Shown piece by piece: positions 14,222-32,449 of a DNA stretch of 40,533 nucleotides. A program made the translations under genes and the position numbers. Under the pieces are notes generated by a model, which was not told the origin of the DNA, did not search any database, and saw only the letters and a list, made by a program, of their open reading frames with translations. The stretch comes from Phycisphaerae bacterium (GTDB lineage Bacteria; Planctomycetota; Phycisphaerae; UBA1845; JAFGLZ01), in NCBI GenBank assembly GCA_016927755.1, contig JAFGLZ010000006.1, forward strand, positions 1 to 40,533, in the 5' to 3' direction. Numbering within the stretch: position 1 is the first letter of the stretch; each line of letters opens with the position of its first letter.

Positions 14222-15622
14222 TTAGCGTTTTCGTGCCCTCAGGGCGAGGCCCCCGCCCATCAGCAGCAACATGGCGCTGGCGGGTTCCGGGACGGGCACC
14301 TCGCCGACGTCCCCGGTGTAGTCCGGGGCGAACGTGTTGACCGACAGATACACCACGCCCGGCGAGTCGATCCCCTCGATCCGCCCGTCGAGGTCGTTGT
14401 CGACGAATGGATCCGCGTCCAGAATCGCCCTGAGCTCGGCCTGAGTCAATCGGTCCAGGCTCGTCCCGTAGTGGTCGTTGATGGCGTCGATGAAGGCGTT
14501 GGCGATCAGGGCGTGGCCGATGTCGCTGGGATGCACGCCGTCCGAGCTGAAAACGCTGGCCTTCTTCTCGCCGAGGTCGGCGATGAACCAGTCGGCGTTG
14601 ACCACCCAGTCATCGATTGCGTACCCGTTCTCGGCGACGTCGGCGAAGATGCTCTTCAAGTCGACAAGGGCGACGTCGTGAAGCGCCGCCTCGGCCGCGA
14701 TGGTGGCATTGAAGCCATTGATGGCCGAGTTGATGGCGACGACCTCGCCGGCGTCCCAGTAGTTCGCCGGGTCGGCCAGCATATCCACCTTCCAGATATC
14801 CTTGCCGAAGAAGCCGACGTCGTCGATCAGAATCGCCGCGGCCATCAGCTCGCTCGTCATCGCGTCCTCGGGCATCGGATTGGGCCCGATCAGGGCGGTG
14901 ATCTCCGCCTTGGTCATCACACCGGCGATATGCTGCAGCTCGGGGAAGTTGGCGATGGCCATCTTCATGTTGCCGGAGGCCGTCATCGTATTCATTAGCG
15001 TCGCGTAGTCATTGGCGTACTCCGTCTGGTCCGTCAGTTCCGAGACGTTCAGGGGATCGGGCTCCCAGGTCAGCCCCATACTGCCGAAGAAATCCTGGAG
15101 AACGGTTCCGTAACTCGTCAGGCAGTTGAGGAAGTCGTTTCCGCCGAGCCAGACGGTCGCGAACGTGGCGCCGTCCGAGATGGCCGCCGAGACTTGAGTC
15201 GCTCCGGTCCTGGGCGCCAGGACGGCGTCCGTCGTGTCGCCCGACTTGTAGGAGGGCGGCAAGAGCGGATCGGCCGTTCGGTACAGGGCGTCGCTGAGCT
15301 GCGCGCCGTTGACGGCCAGGTTGGCTCCGTGGACGTAGTTCGGCGCGTTGATCTGTGTCTGCTCGTCCGATCCGGTCGAGATCGTCAGCAGCGCCAGCGG
15401 GAACTCGGTGCCCATCTTCTCGGCAAGGAGCACGGGGTACGCGTGCGGCTGGGTGCGGTAGTCGACGACCTTGCCGCCCTGGGTCCCGTGCGTCAGGCTG
15501 TCGCCGAGACTTCGGTAGACCGAGAAGTCCACCTGCCCCCAGGCCAAGCTCCCGGAAAGGGTCAAGACACAAACGATGACCGCCAAACGATTGACGAACA
15601 GCAAGCGGATGAACGAACGCAT
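14222..15622 (-). CDS. PEP-CTERM-anchored GDSL/SGNH hydrolase
   Basis: This is a secreted esterase/lipase-like protein of 466 residues. An N-terminal signal peptide (RSFIRLLF...LAVIVCVLTLSGSLAWG) is followed by the SGNH blocks: SLGDSLTHG with the nucleophile Ser near 42, GGND near 160-163, and DGVHPSDIGH with Asp and His near 361 and 364. Near the C-terminus DNDLDGRI resembles a calcium-binding loop. The protein ends in VPVPEPASAMLLLMGGGLALRARKR-type sequence: a PEP motif, a hydrophobic stretch and a basic tail, the recognition signal for exosortase. ATG at 15622 is chosen because the in-frame ATG seven codons upstream lies inside the ribosome site GGAGAGGGAG. The substrate is unknown. Confidence 0.9.
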   Translation of the reverse strand: MRSFIRLLFVNRLAVIVCVLTLSGSLAWGQVDFSVYRSLGDSLTHGTQGGKVVDYRTQPHAYPVLLAEKMGTEFPLALLTISTGSDEQTQINAPNYVHGANLAVNGAQLSDALYRTADPLLPPSYKSGDTTDAVLAPRTGATQVSAAISDGATFATVWLGGNDFLNCLTSYGTVLQDFFGSMGLTWEPDPLNVSELTDQTEYANDYATLMNTMTASGNMKMAIANFPELQHIAGVMTKAEITALIGPNPMPEDAMTSELMAAAILIDDVGFFGKDIWKVDMLADPANYWDAGEVVAINSAINGFNATIAAEAALHDVALVDLKSIFADVAENGYAIDDWVVNADWFIADLGEKKASVFSSDGVHPSDIGHALIANAFIDAINDHYGTSLDRLTQAELRAILDADPFVDNDLDGRIEGIDSPGVVYLSVNTFAPDYTGDVGEVPVPEPASAMLLLMGGGLALRARKR

Positions 15623-15705
15623 GGACCTACTCTCCCTCTCCATCGCCGGACGCGAGACCCGGCGCGATGGCGTGCGACGGTGTGACAGAAGCTAGTACCT
15701 ACTTT

Positions 15706-15780: not shown

Positions 15781-18651
15781 CTACTTGCCGTGACGATACG
15801 GCTTTCCCGCCTGGTAGCCTCTGAGGCGGTCCGCGATGGATTCCGTTAACTCTTTCTGATTAAGTCTCTTAGCGAGGTCCAGGGCCTGTCGGGCCGTGGC
15901 GGCCGCCTCGGCGAATTGCCTCGTCTCGGCGTACGCCGCTGCCAGGCTGTCCAGCACGCGGGCGCTCCGATCGCCGCTCAGCTCGCTGGCCTGTCGGGCC
16001 AATCGGACGGCCTCCTGGCCATTGCGCAGCGCGTCGTCGGGGCAGGTGGCCAGCAGCCAGGCCAGATTGCTCAGGACGCCCGGTTCCTCCGGAGAGTGCT
16101 TCATCGCGGCCCGGAGCAGCTCGATGGCCCGGTCGTACTGCTTGTCTCGAAGGTAGAGGGTCAGCAGATTGTCCCGGGCGGGGCCGTGGTCGGGCTTGAA
16201 TCGCAGCGCCTCGTTGAACCACCGGATCGCCTGATCCGTCTTGCCCGATCGCGCGAAGGCGATGCCCAGATTGTTGCAGCCCTCGACGTGGCCCGGGCGG
16301 CGACGCAGCAGCTCGGCCAGGACGGGCACGGCCTGATCCAGCTTGCCCTGGGCCGTGAGGACCACGCCCAGGTTGTTGGCGGCGCGATCAAGCGTCGGAT
16401 CCGCCACGACGGCGGCTCGAAGATGGGGCTCCGCCTCGGAGTCGCGTCCCTGCTTGTGGAGCAACCAGCCGAGATCGTTGCGCGCTTCGGCGTGTTGCGG
16501 CTTCAACGCCAGCACGTGCTGGTACTCCGCCATCGCTTGCTCGACTTGGCCCGACTGAGCCAAGGCTGCGCCCAGGTTGTAGTGGGCCTCCGCGAAGGAC
16601 GGTTGGATGCGAAGGGCCTCGCGATATTGCTCGATGGCCTCGGCGATCTGACCGCGCGCGGCCAGGGCCAGACCGAGGTTATTGCGGGCCAGCGCGAAGT
16701 CGGGTTTGCACTGTAAGGCTCGCCCAAAGGCCTCGATCGCCTCGACGAGCCGTCCCTGTTGGTAGTAGATCCATCCCATGTTGTTGTGGGGCGAGGGGAG
16801 CGCCGGTTTGAGCTCGACGGCCTGACGGAGCATCGCCAGGGCTCGCTCGGGCTCGCCCTGCTTGAAGAGGGCCCAGCCCAGGTTGCTCCGCGCCTCGGCG
16901 AAGTCGGGGCGGATCCGCAGCGCGCGACGATAGTACGCCGCCGCCTGCTCGAACTTGCCGCGCATGGCCAGCGCGAGCCCGACGTCGTTGAGCTTATGGC
17001 ATTGCTCGGCCGACTCCCGTCGAAACACGGGGGCCAGCAGGCTCTCGACGGGGGCGTAGTCGTCCGTGAGCACGAGCCCGCCGGACCTGGCCTCGAGCTC
17101 GGCCACCTGCTCGGGGGACAGGAGGGTCCCCGGCCAAGTGTTTCCGTTGTCGCCGTCGCGGGACGAGAGGTCGACGCCCACCCGACCGGCCACCACGACG
17201 AACGTGTCGCGCGACGTCGGGTCCAGGGCGGCCAGGCCCGTGCGACCTCGGAAAACCCAGACGTGCTCGAACGTCTCCCTCAACGTCCGAACGATCGCGC
17301 CGAGGAACCGACCCGTGGCCAGGACGTCGATGACGTTGAGCATATAGACGCCGTCGTCCGCCAGGAGCTTGCGGAGCTTCTCGTTGAACTCGACCGTGGT
17401 CAGGTGGAATGGGATGACGTAGTGGTTGAAGGCGTCGCCGTAGATGAAGTCGAAGCGGCGGGGGGGGCTGCCGGCCTCGGCATCCCGCAGGAGGTCGTCC
17501 ACGTAGTTCGCGGCGTCCATGTGGCGGATGCGGATGCCGGCGTCGGGCTCGAGCCCGAGCGCCGTTCGAGCCGCGATCGTGACCTCCGGGTCGATCTCGG
17601 CCACGTCGATCTCGCTGCCGGGCCAGGTGGCTTCGACGTATCGAGGGAACGTATACCCGCCGCCCCCGAGGAAGAGCGTGCGCAGCGGTTTGCCTCCGCG
17701 CGCGAGGCGATGCGTCACGGCGGCGTACAGTCGTTCGTAGTCGTAGAACAGCCTGTTCGGATCTCCCATGAGGACCCAACTGTGGATGAGGCTGTCGAGC
17801 CAGAGCGAGCGAAGCTGAGGCTCGTCCGACTCCTCGATCACCCGGATGAAGCTGTACGCGCTCTCGGTCTGGAAGACGACGTCGTTGGGCAACGGTTCGC
17901 GGAGACCGAGATCGACCGTGGCCGCTCGCGCCCAGGACCACGGGCTTACCAGGAGCAGGGCCAGGAGGATCAGCGTTCCGCTCCACACGCGACTCAGCCA
18001 CGAGCCGAAGGCCAGCGCGGCGCCCGTAACGCCCAGGAGCCCGCTGACGAGCCCGATCGTCGCGGTCGAGCCCATGGCCGCGATGAACCAGTAGCCGGTC
18101 AGGAACGTCCCGACGATACTCCCGATCGCACCCCAGGCGTAGACGTTGCCCACGGTCCGCCCCGTGGCCCGGCCCTGATCCAACGCCATCTTGGCCACGA
18201 CGGGGGCGACCGTCCCCAGGAGCATCGCGGGCCAGAGAAAGACCAGCCCCACGTGGATCGCGATCCGAGTGGACCAGCCCAAGGATCCCAGCGATTCCCA
18301 TCCTCCCACGGCTCGATTCAGCGGCAAGGACAACAGACACAGCAATGAGGAAAGGATCAACAGCACCGACAACGATCGGGCCGGCGGGTAACGATCGGCC
18401 AGACGCCCTCCCACGTAGTTGCCGACGGCCAGGCCCGTCAGGACGACGCCGATGACGGACGTCCACGTGTAAAGCGACGCGCCCAGATGCCGGGCGATCA
18501 TCCGCCCCGCGACCAGCTCCACCACCATGACGCAGAAGCTTGCCAGGAACGCCACGGCGCATGGCAGAATCCAGTCCGCCTGCCGCAGTCGCGGCGGCAG
18601 ACGGAACCTCGGCTTGGCGGGTTCCTTCTTCTTGGTCGTCTGTTTGCCCAT
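15781..18651 (-). CDS. membrane/spermidine-synthase-fold/TPR fusion protein
   Basis: The 956-residue protein has three regions. Residues about 28-260 are polytopic membrane sequence beginning ILPCAVAFLASFCVMVVELVAG. A spermidine-synthase-fold domain (about 300-540) carries TLFLGGGGYTFPRY and VAEIDPEV, then FDFIYGDAFNHYVIPFHLTT. A C-terminal tail (about 555-930) contains roughly nine TPR units with clear consensus, for example AEARSNLGWALFKQGEPERA. The polyamine-specific D-(S/T)-(S/T)-D-P motif is replaced by GDAFNHY, so polyamine synthesis is unlikely. The TPR tail should bind a protein partner. ATG at 18651 is chosen because GAAAGGG lies just upstream and the earlier in-frame residues are unlike the family. 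It is divergent from the hydrolase at 18814. The domain pair with 6210-8660 suggests a shared, unknown role. Confidence 0.82.
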   Translation of the reverse strand: MGKQTTKKKEPAKPRFRLPPRLRQADWILPCAVAFLASFCVMVVELVAGRMIARHLGASLYTWTSVIGVVLTGLAVGNYVGGRLADRYPPARSLSVLLILSSLLCLLSLPLNRAVGGWESLGSLGWSTRIAIHVGLVFLWPAMLLGTVAPVVAKMALDQGRATGRTVGNVYAWGAIGSIVGTFLTGYWFIAAMGSTATIGLVSGLLGVTGAALAFGSWLSRVWSGTLILLALLLVSPWSWARAATVDLGLREPLPNDVVFQTESAYSFIRVIEESDEPQLRSLWLDSLIHSWVLMGDPNRLFYDYERLYAAVTHRLARGGKPLRTLFLGGGGYTFPRYVEATWPGSEIDVAEIDPEVTIAARTALGLEPDAGIRIRHMDAANYVDDLLRDAEAGSPPRRFDFIYGDAFNHYVIPFHLTTVEFNEKLRKLLADDGVYMLNVIDVLATGRFLGAIVRTLRETFEHVWVFRGRTGLAALDPTSRDTFVVVAGRVGVDLSSRDGDNGNTWPGTLLSPEQVAELEARSGGLVLTDDYAPVESLLAPVFRRESAEQCHKLNDVGLALAMRGKFEQAAAYYRRALRIRPDFAEARSNLGWALFKQGEPERALAMLRQAVELKPALPSPHNNMGWIYYQQGRLVEAIEAFGRALQCKPDFALARNNLGLALAARGQIAEAIEQYREALRIQPSFAEAHYNLGAALAQSGQVEQAMAEYQHVLALKPQHAEARNDLGWLLHKQGRDSEAEPHLRAAVVADPTLDRAANNLGVVLTAQGKLDQAVPVLAELLRRRPGHVEGCNNLGIAFARSGKTDQAIRWFNEALRFKPDHGPARDNLLTLYLRDKQYDRAIELLRAAMKHSPEEPGVLSNLAWLLATCPDDALRNGQEAVRLARQASELSGDRSARVLDSLAAAYAETRQFAEAAATARQALDLAKRLNQKELTESIADRLRGYQAGKPYRHGK

Positions 18652-18742
18652 GGCGTGGCCCTTTCGGCGCGAAGCGATCATTGTAGCGAGAAGGGGCCAC
18701 GACGTCTCAACCGTTCGACCGCGCGGATTGCCCTCAAAAGGC

Positions 18743-18771
18743 TTGGACCGCGATTGGCTCGTTGTTAACAT
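18743..18771 (+). promoter_or_regulatory. weak promoter candidate for the 18814 hydrolase
   Basis: TTGGAC (18743-18748) and TAACAT (18766-18771) are separated by 17 bases in the divergent intergenic region. The match to sigma70 consensus is poor (about 3/6 and 4/6), so this is only a candidate. Confidence 0.25.
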
Positions 18772-20008: not shown

Positions 20009-20484
20009 TCACTCTCCGATTGCCCCGAAGAATCGGCGGAGCAGCTCTGCATTGTACCAGGCTCCCTCGTTCGACAAGCGTTCGACCAGAGGGCGAACCG
20101 CTGACACGATGCCGAGTTGCTTGGCACGCGCCAGCAACCCGAGCGATCCCACGACATCCAAACCTACTGCCAAGGCGGCCCTTCGTCCCTTGCGGTCGTC
20201 CATGCAGACCCGGCGGATGTCCTCTTGGATGGCGATGCGAATGACGGCTGCCTCCCCGGATCCAGGGCAGCGAGAGCCACCGGGTCCAGGGGATTGCCAA
20301 GCTGAATGATGGTTAGCCATGGCGGCAGTACAACCGGGTAGCCGAGCGCGGCGCCCGCCTTGATCTCCTGCTCCACCTCGCGCGGGCAAATGAACTGGAT
20401 TGGGAGTTGCCGGAGCACGTCGAGTGCGTCCGCACGCGCGAAGGCGATCAAGGGACCCGTGTTGATGACGATGCGATCATCCAT
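20009..20484 (-). pseudogene. frameshifted PIN-domain toxin (DUF3368-like)
   Basis: The first frame (start ATG 20484) encodes MDDRIVINTGPLIAFARADA, then PREVEQEIKAGAALGYPVVL, up to LAALDPG. The rest of the family pattern continues in another frame: GEAAVIRIAIQEDI, MDDRKGRRAALAVGLDVVGS, then LLARAKQLGIVSAVRPLVERL, ending at 20009. The two halves join perfectly if one C/G is restored in the CCCC run at 20254-20257, giving DPGEAAVI. PIN toxins are Mg-dependent RNases. The start overlaps the stop of the upstream antitoxin gene by eight bases (ATGGATGA), the normal antitoxin-toxin order. Either the toxin is inactivated or the read contains a homopolymer error. Without the correction the first frame runs on into unrelated sequence and stops at 20164. 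Confidence 0.8.
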
Positions 20485-20740
20485 GACGGGCGAAATCTGC
20501 TTCCACGTCCGCTTCCTCCGCCGTGAGATTGCTGACGGGGATTCCCGCGTTGGTGAGCGAGAGAAGAAACTCGACGCGATTCCTGCCGGCCAAGCAGGCG
20601 GCTTGCCCGGAGGTCAACTTGCCGAGCTCGTATAGCTTCGCCGCCAGAAGGAACCTTGCCTCTCGTGAGAACTGATCCGGAGACAGTCCCAGTCCGACGA
20701 GGATATCGTCTCCGTATTCGATGGTTAGCGTCCGTTGCAT
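20477..20740 (-). CDS. UPF0175-family antitoxin
   Basis: This 87-residue protein matches the small UPF0175 family found upstream of DUF3368 PIN toxins. The core REARFLLAAKLYELGKLTSG followed by QAACLAGRNRVEFLLSL is typical, with a putative helix-turn-helix in GKLTSGQAACLAGRNRVEFL and a C-terminal acidic tail that normally covers the toxin. ATG at 20740 is chosen because a strong GAGGTGA site lies just upstream; an in-frame ATG at 20788 would add 16 residues. The stop overlaps the toxin start. The gene seems intact although the toxin frame is broken. Autoregulation would be expected from the family, but I see no operator. Confidence 0.82.
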   Translation of the reverse strand: MQRTLTIEYGDDILVGLGLSPDQFSREARFLLAAKLYELGKLTSGQAACLAGRNRVEFLLSLTNAGIPVSNLTAEEADVEADFARHG

Positions 20741-20932
20741 GCCGTCACCTCGGACCACGATTACCGTCCGACGGTCATGATACCACATCCGTGACTTCCC
20801 GCGAACAGAGAGCGAGGATTCTCTCGAGACCTGAGTTACCTGATTCCTCTGCCAGCCAGGACCGCCGATCCGGAAACGTCTATTCGAAGCGTCCCGTTTC
20901 CCTCGTCTTCAAGGCGGCTGCCTTGCGACGCT

Positions 20933-21556
20933 TCACCAGTCCGGCTGCTCGAGCCACGCCTGAAGGGTCTGCTTGGCCGCCTGCGATTTGGCGGGCCAGT
21001 CTCGACCGCGGTTCTCGATCAGCGCGTACCGCGGATGGTTCCCGGCGATCTCGGCGCAGAGCGAATCGACGACGGCGGCCTCTTCGGGGGATTCATGACG
21101 ACCGGCCTCGGCGCCCCGGACGTAGTGCGCCGCCGCCCCGATCGCGGAGGTCTGCAGGTGGAGCACCCCGTCGTATCGGCGCACGTGTTCGTCCAGACTC
21201 ATCTCCGTCAGATCGAAGAACTCCTGGTCGTCCCATCCGCCATGCCGCCAGTACGCCAGCGAATCGAGCGTGCCGCGATCGCAGATCAGGACCTTGCCCG
21301 CGCCGGACGCTTCCGGCCCGGCCGCAAGGGCGACGGCGTCCTCCAGGATGAGCTGGAGGCGGACGACGCCGATCTGAAACCGCTTCGTCCCCGGTCTCAA
21401 TCCCGCGGAGATGAGCAGCGTCGCGGCCTCGGGGACCCGCAGCCAGCGATCGACGGAGGGATCCTCGGCGCGAAGCTCACGGCTCAGTGTCGTCTTTCCC
21501 CCGCCGGGCCCTCCCGTCAGCAAGATCCGTCTGCTCCGTGGCACGCCGTCCTCCAT
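20933..21556 (-). CDS. AAA_28-type P-loop NTPase/kinase-like protein
   Basis: The 207-residue protein begins with RRILLTGGPGGGKTTLSREL, a Walker A motif (GGPGGGKTT) near residues 14-22. VPEAATLLISAGLRPG follows, then VLICDRGTLDSLAYW (Walker B-like LICDRG, near 91-96), and LQTSAIGAAAHYVRG with basic residues further on. This order is that of the AAA_28 (NadR/thymidylate-kinase-like) domain, whose bacterial members are mostly uncharacterised and may be nucleotide or nucleoside kinases. ATG at 21556 is preferred since the upstream in-frame residues are arginine-rich and atypical; no strong ribosome site is seen. The gene stands alone on the minus strand, with the tandem small-RNA locus reading away from it on the other strand. 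Confidence 0.75.
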   Translation of the reverse strand: MEDGVPRSRRILLTGGPGGGKTTLSRELRAEDPSVDRWLRVPEAATLLISAGLRPGTKRFQIGVVRLQLILEDAVALAAGPEASGAGKVLICDRGTLDSLAYWRHGGWDDQEFFDLTEMSLDEHVRRYDGVLHLQTSAIGAAAHYVRGAEAGRHESPEEAAVVDSLCAEIAGNHPRYALIENRGRDWPAKSQAAKQTLQAWLEQPDW

Positions 21557-21683
21557 GGCTTGGTCGTCGATCCGCGATTGCCCGAACCGCGCAGATCCTA
21601 AGGTTCCCGCGAGACGTGTCAACGGACGCTCCCGGCGGCGAACGTCCAATAAGGGCGATCGCAAAAAAAAAGCGGGACCGCGG

Positions 21684-21709
21684 CGAACTCCTCGCGAGCC
21701 CCCTCGTAT
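21684..21709 (+). promoter_or_regulatory. ECF-like promoter of small RNA copy 1
   Basis: CGAAC (21684-21688) and CGTAT (21705-21709) are 16 bases apart, followed after a short gap by ATCAGAA. The same elements precede copy 2 (21996-22000 and 22018-22022). GAAC in the -35 position with CGT in the -10 position is the general layout of ECF sigma-factor promoters. The same site also contains TATCAT (21707-21712), so a sigma70 reading is possible. Confidence 0.45.
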
Positions 21710-21713
21710 CATG

Positions 21714-21827
21714 ATCAGAAGAACAACAGACTCCCAACCTCCTTACCCCTTACGGTCGAGTGAACCCCCAATTATCACTCGACGGACTCCAACAGGCCGC
21801 ACTTTCCTCCGGTGCGGCCTTCTTTCT
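21714..21827 (+). ncRNA. putative anti-SD small RNA, copy 1
   Basis: About 110 bases with no plausible reading frame but a clear RNA layout shared with copy 2 at 22027-22127. In order it has ATCAGAA at the 5' end; a C-rich unpaired segment ACCTCCTTACC (21737-21747), whose CCUCCUU is complementary to the ribosome-binding sequence AAGGAGG; a perfect 9-bp hairpin GTCGAGTGA/TCACTCGAC (21755-21783) with an 11-base loop holding CCCCC; and a Rho-independent terminator. The terminator loop again contains TCCTCC. The order resembles the CCUCC-loop small RNAs known from alphaproteobacteria, but that is an analogy only. Expression and ends are unproven. Confidence 0.6.
21795..21827 (+). terminator. Rho-independent terminator of small RNA copy 1
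   Basis: GGCCGCAC (21795-21802) pairs perfectly with GTGCGGCC (21812-21819) around a 9-base loop, followed by TTCTTTCT. The T tract is only on the + strand side, which fixes the direction of transcription. Confidence 0.8.
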
Positions 21828-21831
21828 GCGC

Positions 21832-21995
21832 GATCCACATTCCAGCGCCTGCTCGAGGCCTTCGGCGGGTCGGGACAGGCGGCGGCCATATCCTTAATCG
21901 ATTGCAGAGAAAAGCTTTATGTCCGGGTTCCTGGGCTCGGGGTGTGCGAGCACGGCGGGGCCCTCGCGGATTCGGCGAGATTTTTGGGTCTCGGT
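21832..21995. other. spacer between the two small RNA copies
   Basis: No gene, convincing reading frame or promoter other than those of the flanking copies is visible here. It contains a short AT-richer patch around 21890-21920 (CCTTAATCGATTGC, AAAGCTTTA). Confidence 0.4.
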
Positions 21996-22022
21996 CGAAC
22001 CGACGAGGGCGGGTGGGCGTAT
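21996..22022 (+). promoter_or_regulatory. ECF-like promoter of small RNA copy 2
   Basis: CGAAC (21996-22000) and CGTAT (22018-22022) are 17 bases apart and are followed by ATCAGAA at 22027, repeating the layout before copy 1. The intervening bases are not conserved, so retention of both boxes is suggestive. Confidence 0.45.
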
Positions 22023-22026
22023 GAGT

Positions 22027-22127
22027 ATCAGAACACGAAACCCCAGACCTCCTTACCAATCTCCATCGTCGAGGGAACTCGACAAGACCTCAGGGCCGCA
22101 TTCTCCTCCGGTGCGGCCCTTCTTTTT
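22027..22127 (+). ncRNA. putative anti-SD small RNA, copy 2
   Basis: About 100 bases with the same order as copy 1. It has ATCAGAA, then ACCTCCTTACC (22047-22057), identical over 11 bases to copy 1. The hairpin GTCGAG-GGAA-CTCGAC (22068-22083) is shortened to 6 bp and closed by a GNRA-type tetraloop. The terminator is GGGCCGCA/TGCGGCCC (22093-22119) with CTCCTCC in its loop. Between the copies the sequence has diverged a good deal while pairing and the CCUCC segments are kept, which argues for a functional RNA. The MFS gene starts 37 bases beyond the T tract, so a leader or attenuator role for that gene is an alternative. Confidence 0.6.
22093..22127 (+). terminator. Rho-independent terminator of small RNA copy 2
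   Basis: The stem GGGCCGCA (22093-22100)/TGCGGCCC (22112-22119) with an 11-base loop is followed by TTCTTTTT. Compared with copy 1 the stem has shifted by one pair: a G-C pair was gained at the base and a C-G pair lost at the top. Confidence 0.82.
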
Positions 22128-22163: not shown

Positions 22164-23459
22164 ATGCCTGCCTCCGGTCGAGACCCTTTGTCCCCAAACG
22201 ATCAGCGACGGGGAGAACGGCTCTTGCTCGCCGAGTCGGCGCTCGCTCGCGCCATGGCGACCTCGTCGAGTGGGATGTATCTGGCCGCTCTGGCCCTGGC
22301 CCTGGGTGCCAATGAATTCGAGTACGGCAAGCTGGCCGGGGCCGTCTTCGTCGGCGGCTCCCTTCAGCTCCTCGTCGTGCCCTTGCTGACTTGGATCGGC
22401 TCGCGCCGGCGGTTCTGCCTGGTCGGGTTGGGCGCGACTCGGTTCTTCCGCGTCTGTCTGGCCGCCGCCCCGCTGCTCGTCCTGTGGAACGTGACACCCG
22501 GCGGCGTGATGTGGGTCATGTTCTTTGCGCTCGTCCTCAGCGCGATCACGGGGACGGCCTCGGAGACGGCGCGACAGAGTTGGATGAGCGACCTGATCCC
22601 CAAGGCTCGGCTGGGGAGATTCATCGGCTGGCGTTCCGCCGTCATGCAATGCGCCGGTATCGTCACCATGTTGGCGTACGCCGCCTACCTCGAGTTCTGG
22701 CGGTACACCGGACACGATCCGATTCCCGGTTTCCAGTACCTGATCCTGTTCGGCACGGGGCTGGGCGTCATTGGTTTGTTCCTGATCGCCAAGGCGCCGG
22801 AGCCGCCGATGTCGGAGAGGCTCAGCCCAAGGCTGCAGTGGGTGGCCGTTACGCTGCCGCTTCGCGACGCCAGGTTCCGCCGATTCATCGTGTTCTTCTG
22901 TCTCTGGACGCTGGCGATGCCCATGGCGGGGATGTTTTTCCACCTGTACATGCTGGACTATCTCGGCCTGCGCCATCGACCGATGGGCTACGTCCTGGTC
23001 GCCGCGACCGACATCATCAGCATGCTCGTGGGGATGGCGTCCGCTCCGCTCTGGGGTCGGCTGGCCGATCGGTGGGGGACCAAGCGCGTGCTGTTGCGGG
23101 CCGGCTTCGTGATGGCCCTCTTCCCCCTGCTGTGGATCCCCATCACTCCGGGTTTGTGGTGGCTGATCTTCGTGGTCATCCTGGTCCGGGTCTTTGGGAG
23201 CGCTTGTGATATCGGCCCGATGACGATGGCCATGCAGATGGCGCCCCGGCGCCGTCGCTCGATCTACATCAGCGTCTACCGAAGTCTGGGATGCGTGACG
23301 CAGGCGGTCGCCCCGATGGTAGGGGGGGCGATCGCCCACAAAGCGGGCCCGTCCTTCTGGACATTGGGCGCCTTTACCTTCACCGGACTCCACCTGTTGT
23401 TCGTCATCAGCACGTTCGGACGGCTGCTCAGCCTGTGGTGGCTTCGAAGGGTCAATTGA
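22164..23459 (+). CDS. MFS-type transporter
   Basis: The protein has 431 residues and about 12 hydrophobic segments, from MYLAALALALGANEFEYGKL near residue 38 to LHLLFVISTFGRLLSLWWL at the C-terminus. Between segments 2 and 3 it carries basic loop residues (SRRRFC), and midway RLADRWGTKRVLLRAG, the common MFS loop motif D-R-x-G-x-(K/R). MYLAALALALGAN...AGAVFVGGSLQLLV is the style of a YceI-like/MFS_1 protein of unknown substrate. It is the first gene of the + strand series ending at 28440. ATG at 22164 has GGGG four bases upstream. The substrate cannot be inferred. Confidence 0.75.
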   Translation: MPASGRDPLSPNDQRRGERLLLAESALARAMATSSSGMYLAALALALGANEFEYGKLAGAVFVGGSLQLLVVPLLTWIGSRRRFCLVGLGATRFFRVCLAAAPLLVLWNVTPGGVMWVMFFALVLSAITGTASETARQSWMSDLIPKARLGRFIGWRSAVMQCAGIVTMLAYAAYLEFWRYTGHDPIPGFQYLILFGTGLGVIGLFLIAKAPEPPMSERLSPRLQWVAVTLPLRDARFRRFIVFFCLWTLAMPMAGMFFHLYMLDYLGLRHRPMGYVLVAATDIISMLVGMASAPLWGRLADRWGTKRVLLRAGFVMALFPLLWIPITPGLWWLIFVVILVRVFGSACDIGPMTMAMQMAPRRRRSIYISVYRSLGCVTQAVAPMVGGAIAHKAGPSFWTLGAFTFTGLHLLFVISTFGRLLSLWWLRRVN

Positions 23460-30534: not shown

Positions 30535-30607
30535 GGGCCCGTAGCTCAGCGGTTAGAGCAGTCGGCTCATAACCGATCGGTCGTAGGTTCGAATCCTACC
30601 GGGCCCA
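30535..30607 (+). tRNA. tRNA-Met (CAT)
   Basis: The sequence folds as a standard 73-base cloverleaf. Acceptor GGGCCCG pairs with CGGGCCC; the D stem is GCTC/GAGC; the anticodon stem GTCGG/CCGAT surrounds the loop CTCATAA, with the anticodon CAT at 30568-30570; the T stem is GTAGG/CCTAC with loop TTCGAAT. The discriminator is A and the gene does not encode the terminal CCA (TGG follows). The G1-C72 pair and the overall body suggest the elongator. A tRNA-Ile2 whose C34 would be lysidine-modified cannot be excluded by eye. Confidence 0.92.
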
Positions 30608-31147: not shown

Positions 31148-32449
31148 ATGCCAACGGATGGTCGAAGCGGTTCGTCGGGGGGCAAGCGGGGTCGTCGCGG
31201 AAGCGTATGTAGCTTCTGCGGGAAGAGCCACCGCGACACCGGGCCGATGGTCGAAGGGCCCGGCGACGTGTTTATCTGCGCTTCGTGCGTGGATCTCTGC
31301 CACAACATCATCAAGCAGGAGCGGCGAAAGGTCAGTGCCACTCAACCCCTGTTCGGCACCATCCCGACCCCTCGACAGATCAAGGAATACCTCGATCAGT
31401 ACGTCATCGCCCAGGTCGACGCCAAGAAGGTCCTGGCCGTGGCGGTCCACAACCACTACAAGCGGCTGACCCACGCGGACACCGCCGGAGACGATGACGT
31501 CGAGATCGAGAAGTCCAACGTCCTGCTCATCGGCCCGACGGGCGTGGGCAAGACCTATCTCGCCAGGACCCTGGCGACCTTCCTGAACGTGCCGTTCGCC
31601 ATCGCGGACGCCACGACGCTGACCGAGGCGGGCTACGTCGGCGAGGACGTCGAGAACGTCCTGCTCAGGCTCCTGCAGGCCGCCGACTATGACCTCGAGG
31701 CCGCCCAGCGAGGCATCATCTACATTGACGAGATCGACAAGATCGGGCGAACCACGCAGAACGTCAGCATCACGCGCGACGTCAGCGGCGAGGGCGTCCA
31801 GCAGGCGCTGCTCAAGATGCTCGAGGGCACCATCGCCAACATCCCGCCGCAGGGCGGACGCAAGCATCCCGAGCAGCAGTACATCCAGATGGACACCAGC
31901 CAGATCCTGTTCGTCTGCGGCGGGACCTTCACCGGACTGGTCGACATCATCAAACGTCGACTGGGCCAGAAGAACATCGGCTTCACCAGCGAGTCGGAAC
32001 AGGCGACGGACATCCACACGGCCGAGACGCTCGAGATCCTTCAACAGGTCAGCCCGGACGACCTCGTCAAGTTCGGTATGATCCCAGAGCTGATCGGCCG
32101 CTTGCCGGTCACGACGGTCCTGGGTCCGTTGGACCAGGACGCCCTCGTGCAGATCCTCACCGAGCCGCGGAACGCCCTGGTCAAGCAGTACCAGCGGTTC
32201 TTCGAGTTCGAGGACTGCTCGCTGGAGTTCTCGGAGGAGTCGCTTCGGGAGATCGCCGAGAAGGCCTTGGAGCGCGACGTCGGCGCCCGGGCACTGCGGG
32301 CCATCATCGAAGAGCTGATGACCGACGTGATGTTCGAGCTGCCCGAGCACCACGGACGCGGCAAGTACGTCGTGACGGGGGCCGTGGCCAGACGCGAGGA
32401 ACAACTCTTCGACTCCGTTGACGAGGAACGTCAGAAGGAATCCGCCTGA
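31148..32449 (+). CDS. clpX: ClpX, ATP-dependent unfoldase subunit of Clp protease
   Basis: ClpX forms a hexameric AAA+ ring that unfolds tagged proteins and threads them into ClpP. The 433-residue protein has the N-terminal zinc-binding domain (CSFC 21-24 and CASC 44-47) and Walker A GPTGVGKT (129-136). The pore loop is GYVG (162-165), Walker B is IIYIDEID (190-197), and [18 protein letters not shown] follows. The IGF tripeptide (277-279) that docks to ClpP is present. Usual length is about 420. A good AAGGA site precedes the ATG, with the hairpin at 31110-31132 just upstream. Neither clpP nor tig is adjacent, unlike the common tig-clpP-clpX order, so ClpP must be encoded elsewhere. The identification is firm. 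Confidence 0.98.

Follow-up and report, generated by a model that had tools for sequence, protein, structure and literature searches.

A tandem pair of candidate small RNAs with anti-Shine-Dalgarno segments in a Phycisphaerae genome

Described anti-SD small RNAs and the candidate locus

Three kinds of described small RNA are the nearest functional models for the locus analyzed here. LhrC1-5 of Listeria monocytogenes is a multicopy group of G-poor RNAs of 111-114 nt that binds lapB mRNA at the Shine-Dalgarno (SD) sequence and carries CU-rich motifs in a single-stranded stretch and in the terminator loop (PMC4132741). Its motif is given as UCCC, which also occurs in the first hairpin loop, and the five almost identical copies are under LisRK. 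The alpha-r14/NfeR1 'cuckoo' RNAs of Rhizobiales have repeated, unpaired CCUCC anti-SD motifs, which are kept as the stems diverge, and silence ntrB at the translation initiation region (PMC10746234, PMC3927594). They fold into three or four hairpins, and CCUCCUCCC is present in every one of these. RepG of Helicobacter pylori pairs through a C/U-rich terminator loop (PMC8295292). Planctomycetota have been counted among the phyla with small fractions of SD genes, in a comparative study that included one planctomycete (PMC5397173), and an RNA aimed at SD sites could therefore separate SD from non-SD translation in this phylum. Judged by titles and abstract openings, the matches listed from the open-access literature included no planctomycete anti-SD small RNA.

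Here, we followed up a sequence-only reading of a window of 40,533 nt (the whole stretch of DNA that was analyzed) from a Phycisphaerae assembly that is 98.67% complete and 7.48% contaminated. Two related + strand stretches, copy 1 and copy 2, lie 199 nt apart between an MFS transporter gene and a divergent AAA_28 ATPase gene, the true start of which is probably close to 21556 (Table 1). In both copies the elements follow the same order, namely ATCAGAA, a C/A-rich linker, ACCTCCTTACC, a short linker, a perfect hairpin, a further linker and an intrinsic terminator. Two copies about 310 bases apart with this layout, an identical 11-base segment and a hairpin that shrinks with its pairing kept perfect had been described before, and all of this was recovered: every element is in place, the two occurrences of ACCTCCTTACC are 310 nt apart and agree at 11/11 positions, and both forms of the hairpin pair without a mismatch. 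As the upstream ATPase gene is divergent, the + strand terminators close no recognized gene; the simplest reading is that each is predicted to end a short transcript of its own.

Table 1. Coordinates of the candidate small RNAs, their parts and annotated neighbours in the window
Feature	Position	Strand	Remarks
AAA_28 ATPase gene, divergent upstream neighbour	20933..21712	-	Pfam PF13521, E 4.6e-20
CGAAC, putative -35, copy 1	21684..21688	+	common to both copies; spacer 16
CGTAT, putative -10, copy 1	21705..21709	+	same 5-mer, 4 nt before ATCAGAA in both copies
Candidate small RNA, copy 1	21714..21827	+	114 nt as drawn, 5' end approximate
5' ATCAGAA, copy 1	21714..21720	+	7/7 identical to copy 2
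Anti-SD segment ACCTCCTTACC, copy 1	21737..21747	+	11/11 identical to copy 2
Hairpin, copy 1	21755..21783	+	9 bp, 11-nt loop ACCCCCAATTA
Intrinsic terminator and T-rich tail, copy 1	21794..21827	+	stem-loop 21794-21820; loop TCCTCC 21805-21810
CGAAC, putative -35, copy 2	21996..22000	+	spacer 17 to CGTAT
CGTAT, putative -10, copy 2	22018..22022	+	4 nt before ATCAGAA
Candidate small RNA, copy 2	22027..22127	+	101 nt as drawn, 5' end approximate
Anti-SD segment ACCTCCTTACC, copy 2	22047..22057	+	same 11-mer
Hairpin, copy 2	22068..22083	+	6 bp, GGAA loop
Intrinsic terminator and T-rich tail, copy 2	22092..22127	+	stem-loop 22092-22120; loop TCCTCC 22104-22109
MFS transporter gene, downstream neighbour	22164..23459	+	Pfam PF07690, E 7.3e-29
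tRNA	30535-30607		sole Rfam match in the window

The candidates resemble LhrC in being multicopy and G-poor and in combining a CU-rich linear stretch with a terminator loop. Several terminator-ended copies of about 111-114 nt are likewise present (114 and 101 nt as drawn), a general trait that is not diagnostic. In contrast to LhrC, there are two diverged copies, the motifs are ACCUCCUUACC and UCCUCC, and the hairpin loop holds no such motif; the LhrC arrangement of UCCC in hairpin loop, linker and terminator loop was not found, the loops being ACCCCCAATTA, GGAA and the TCCTCC-bearing ones. No sequence relation to LhrC was shown. With alpha-r14 the candidates share anti-SD motifs that lie in predicted unpaired regions and are kept as stems diverge, but here the first motif is part of the linear 5' region and the second, which is shorter, sits in the loop of the terminator; there are two hairpins rather than three or more with CCUCCUCCC in the loop, and CCTCCTCCC is absent from both copies. 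RepG differs in targeting a homopolymeric G-repeat in the leader, whereas the RNAs considered here are predicted to target SD sites. An Rfam search, proposed earlier as a check, turned out as the idea of an undescribed pair would have it, since no family of release 15 reached its gathering score at either copy. A score of 16.3 bits (E 1.1) for suhB/mmgR (RF00519) at copy 2, mostly over the terminator, is at chance level, far below the gathering score of 41, and was discarded. Because the defining motifs of LhrC and alpha-r14 are lacking and Rfam gives no match, the pair likely represents a new RNA family that works like these RNAs and is a member of neither. Should the pair be real, the CCUCC solution of Listeria and rhizobia would likely have arisen independently once more, here in a genome that has no recognizable Hfq.

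Conservation, structure and coding potential

The two copies are homologous beyond chance. Their best local alignment score, 47, lies in the terminator part, for which dinucleotide shuffles (n=2000) gave a maximum of 32; the 5' part alone scored 29 against a shuffle maximum of 28 (n=2000), a narrow margin. For the 5' part, the terminator part and the entire copies alike, 0/2000 shuffles reached the observed score. Identity is distributed in blocks: the 5' end (7/7), the anti-SD segment (11/11) and the outer arms of the hairpin stem (12/12) are invariant and the terminator arms (17/18) and terminator loop (8/9) nearly so, whereas the linkers agree at 10/28 positions in a padded alignment. At the linker rate, an intact 11-mer has a probability of 1.2e-5, or of 9e-4 if the upper 95% bound of that rate is used. 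Genome-wide, the 11-mer is found at 7 places versus 7 for the reversed control and is hence without enrichment.

Standard pairs fill all 34 scorable pair cells, as compared to 30-52% of them when the partner is slid; part of this outcome is to be expected, since the same two sequences served to derive the structure. Three inner pairs of the hairpin stem were gained or lost as pairs. For the terminator, the sequence-only reading had claimed a stem shifted by a compensated pair; the shift was seen, but it consists of one inserted G-C pair and one change from C-G to U-G, so that the compensation did not hold up. Since none of the stem pairs carries a two-sided substitution between the copies, the structure rests on kept stems and on paired gains and losses, not on classical covariation. 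The predicted fold of copy 1 is better than those of its shuffles (z -4.89, 0/200 as good), and that of copy 2 alone is only modestly so (z -1.64, 10/200 as good). Intrinsic terminators are sparse in this genome, with 22 candidates on both strands of 440,533 bp, and CCTCC in the terminator loop is found in 2 of these 22, both at this locus.

The conserved blocks could also reflect two short paralogous protein genes that start from the ATGs at 21711 and 22021 (MIRRTTDSQPPYP / MSIRTRNPRPPYQ). A 37-nt ungapped match does start at both ATGs, and PPY is kept. Six codons are changed, however, and all of these changes are nonsynonymous; 8 of the 10 differences affect a first or second codon position, and the frames of 145 and 122 aa cross the terminators and are dissimilar beyond the start. 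Neither ATG has GGAG, GAGG or AGGA 4-16 nt upstream, and we consider such genes scarcely tenable. The stretch from ATCAGAA to the terminator is free of ATG, GTG and TTG in copy 2 and contains a single GTG in copy 1. That no gene explains the layout, as proposed from the letters of the DNA, agrees with these findings: the two separately terminated units are best read as non-coding.

Promoter-like elements and predicted pairing with SD sites

Both copies are preceded by CGAAC and CGTAT at similar spacing, and the region around these shared elements is otherwise diverged (16/45 ungapped identities). In a post hoc test, 4 of 20000 shuffled pairs were as good as the observed CGAAC-N16/17-CGTAT pair. 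This pair may resemble ECF-type promoters (AAC ... CGT); a scan for sigma-70 promoters found none on the + strand at the locus. The CGAAC/CGTAT pattern occurs at 40 places in the genome versus 8 for the control. Of 30 such loci that were retrieved, two are the copies and one was not located again; among the other 27, 23 lie within open frames of at least 200 codons, a measure that is weak because both copies themselves sit in open frames of 256-269 codons. An ECF-type regulon derived from the promoter pattern was dropped as evidence either way, and no regulon was defined.

Copy 2, or both copies, might instead be 5' leader attenuators of the MFS gene at 22164, in which a signal relieves the terminator and ACCUCCUUACC serves as a sensor or binds a protein. 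The MFS gene starts 36 nt beyond the end of copy 2 and in the same direction, and tandem regulatory leaders are known, both of which would suit this arrangement. It is harder to reconcile with the lack of a conserved antiterminator, given that the strongest competing pairings of the upstream part reach -8.1 and -4.7 kcal/mol with the 5' arm of the terminator and -8.3 and -7.3 kcal/mol with its 3' arm, as compared to -18.0 and -18.9 kcal/mol for the terminators themselves. A second promoter-like pair within the 199 nt between the copies and the lack of a leader-peptide start codon in copy 2 also argue against attenuation, which we regard as unlikely.

The explanation we favour, at little better than even chances, is that of tandem small-RNA genes the RNAs of which are predicted to pair with target SD regions and likely block translation. 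Each copy would have a promoter of its own and give rise to an RNA of about 95-114 nt. By means of ACCUCCUUACC and the UCCUCC loop of its terminator, this RNA would base-pair with the SD region of target mRNAs; pairing would occlude the ribosome-binding site and thereby repress in trans. Duplication might raise the dosage or divide control over one regulon, in line with what has been proposed for the several copies of LhrC. Homologous units, an anti-SD segment kept amid diverged linkers, perfect hairpins and terminators and a genome that uses SD sites are the observations underlying this proposal. Transcription, the promoter elements, action in trans and repression by occlusion are the parts of it that we infer.

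The sequence ACCTCCTT presumably corresponds to a stretch of the usual anti-SD tail of 16S rRNA. A search of the assembly for a 16S gene came up empty, a result of little weight as the same search succeeded in 9 of 14 control genomes and missed 5. The genome uses SD sites: of 214 predicted genes, 43.0% carry GGAG, GAGG or AGGA 4-16 nt ahead of the first ATG, as compared to 11.2% of 3891 internal starts, and motif positions peak at -10 to -13. In more than half of the 214 sampled genes the motif is absent at the first ATG. The whole anti-SD segment is predicted to be unpaired with a probability of 0.73 in copy 1 and 0.77 in copy 2, the terminator-loop TCCTCC with 0.997 and 0.963, respectively. 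By prediction, therefore, an unpaired SD-complementary segment in an SD-using genome is present.

Binding figures were obtained for seeds at a threshold of -9 kcal/mol. The ACCTCCTTACC seed reached it at 20.1% of 214 start regions versus 6.2% of 208 internal ATGs; shuffled seeds reached a mean of 16.5% and a maximum of 29.0%, and the copy 1 linker without the motif bound 17.8% of start regions. The two terminator-loop seeds gave 25.7% and 40.2% of start regions versus shuffled means of 25.1% and 35.5%. Binding above composition-shuffled seeds was thus not seen in the 214 start regions for either ACCTCCTTACC or the terminator-loop seeds. As shuffled seeds and the motif-free linker do about as well, these figures do not demonstrate specific targeting. 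Elsewhere in the genome the 11-mer occurs at 5 further places, the complementary strand of which offers no convincing ribosome-binding site; one perfect 11-nt target place has an ATG 7 nt downstream that opens an 18-aa frame. The earlier proposal that RNAs with CCUCCUU could bind many mRNA leaders is hence upheld with regard to an accessible anti-SD segment and an SD-using genome, but finds no support in seed binding when shuffled seeds are the yardstick.

For Hfq, the best match in the 98.67% complete assembly scored 12.6 bits versus a cut-off of 27, with a search that matched in 6 of 14 control genomes, 5 of them over the cut-off. Since no Hfq gene exceeds the cut-off, pairing would likely be unaided or rely on another chaperone. 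A bolder version of SD pairing, which we hold to be very doubtful, would make the twins stress-inducible mimics of the 16S tail: under one alternative sigma factor and with ACCUCCUU copying the 3' end of 16S rRNA, they would act as Hfq-free global decoys that compete with the ribosome for SD sites and favour SD-less mRNAs. If true, this would be the first such system in Planctomycetota.

Rather than pairing with mRNAs, the RNAs might act through a protein or the ribosome, for example as a sponge for ribosomal protein S1 or another protein that binds C/A-rich RNA. The 41-nt 5' parts, which hold 3-4 G and 16-17 C in a window with 33% G, would be compatible with such a role, as would the many sampled genes without an SD motif. 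G-poor, C-rich 41-mers are not rare, however, forming 102 clusters in the 440 kb sample, and a sponge strikes us as decidedly unlikely. In the window, 2 of 80984 41-mers have 3 G or fewer; in view of how often G-poor, C-rich 41-mers occur across the 440 kb sample, extreme G-poverty as a signal was nevertheless dropped.

Distribution of the pair and other genes of the window

A covariance model, R1, was built from the two copies. In the host genome it matched copies 1 and 2 and no third copy. In the order it matched 1 of 114 genomes, the host's own, the other 113 all coming from outside the host's family; in the class sample 1 of 397 genomes, again the host's own; and in the phylum sample 2 of 392, the host's own and one marginal match. 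The latter (E 0.037 per genome, among 392) coincides with the terminator-bearing 3' end of an open frame of 352 aa and was rejected. Searches on more than 40 genomes used stricter filters, the order, class and phylum samples overlap, and the host is the only genome of its family in them. A covariance search of planctomycete genomes had been put forward as a check, and the expectation of homologues failed here, as none appeared in the order, class or phylum sample.

Other searches gave the same picture. In blastn with 420 bp, 1 of 61 genomes had a match, and there was no match in plasmids and phages. A pattern for the architecture hit 6 of 114 genomes of the order versus 8 matches of the reversed control; the host is one of these 6, and the 5 others lie in open frames of 168-486 codons without a T-run and were discarded. 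The same holds for 5 stretches in viral contigs, all of which are in open frames and lack a T-run and an R1 match. A looser pattern found 14 places in the host genome (control 9), copy 2 among them, and by R1, the only criterion applied, none of the other 13 was matched. Relatives of the neighbouring MFS transporter with 60-74% identity exist as proteins; a contig scan with two MFS peptide patterns gave 6 relatives of 23-28% identity, and R1 had no match at the loci of these 6 or of three class relatives.

That no homologue was found outside the host genome, and only two copies in all, would fit a local duplication of a non-functional, terminator-bearing segment in which the kept 11-mer is incidental. 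Against this stand the strong divergence of the linkers and promoter spacers alongside several separately kept blocks, and a decaying duplicate would be expected to lose stems and T-runs alike. We judge a non-functional duplication improbable.

Further genes of the window were noted in passing. Two overlapping small genes at 20164-20788 on the - strand encode a UPF0175 protein of 102 aa (Pfam PF03683) and, after it, a protein of 106 aa that matches no Pfam family, an arrangement that appears to resemble a toxin-antitoxin pair. The gene at 14222-15643 (-) encodes a GDSL lipase-like protein that has a PEP-CTERM sorting motif at its C-terminus. At 15781-18771 (-) there is a gene for a 996-aa protein with a weak N-terminal MFS match and many TPR repeats, the N-terminal part of which recalls, in our estimation, spermidine-synthase-like fusions. 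The ClpX protein encoded at 31148-32449 (+) has relatives of 79-88% identity in metagenomic contigs, and the nearest ones with an organism name, at 73% identity, are from Phycisphaerae, in agreement with a planctomycete origin of the window. Judged by their lengths, two contigs of 344,312 and 190,682 bases seem to encode relatives of both the MFS transporter and ClpX, with identities of 73/87% and 65/87%, respectively. A 731-aa metagenomic ClpX-like protein (P0018), which is 72% identical, slightly outscores the window's own ClpX, and this score suggests a duplicated or fused ClpX.
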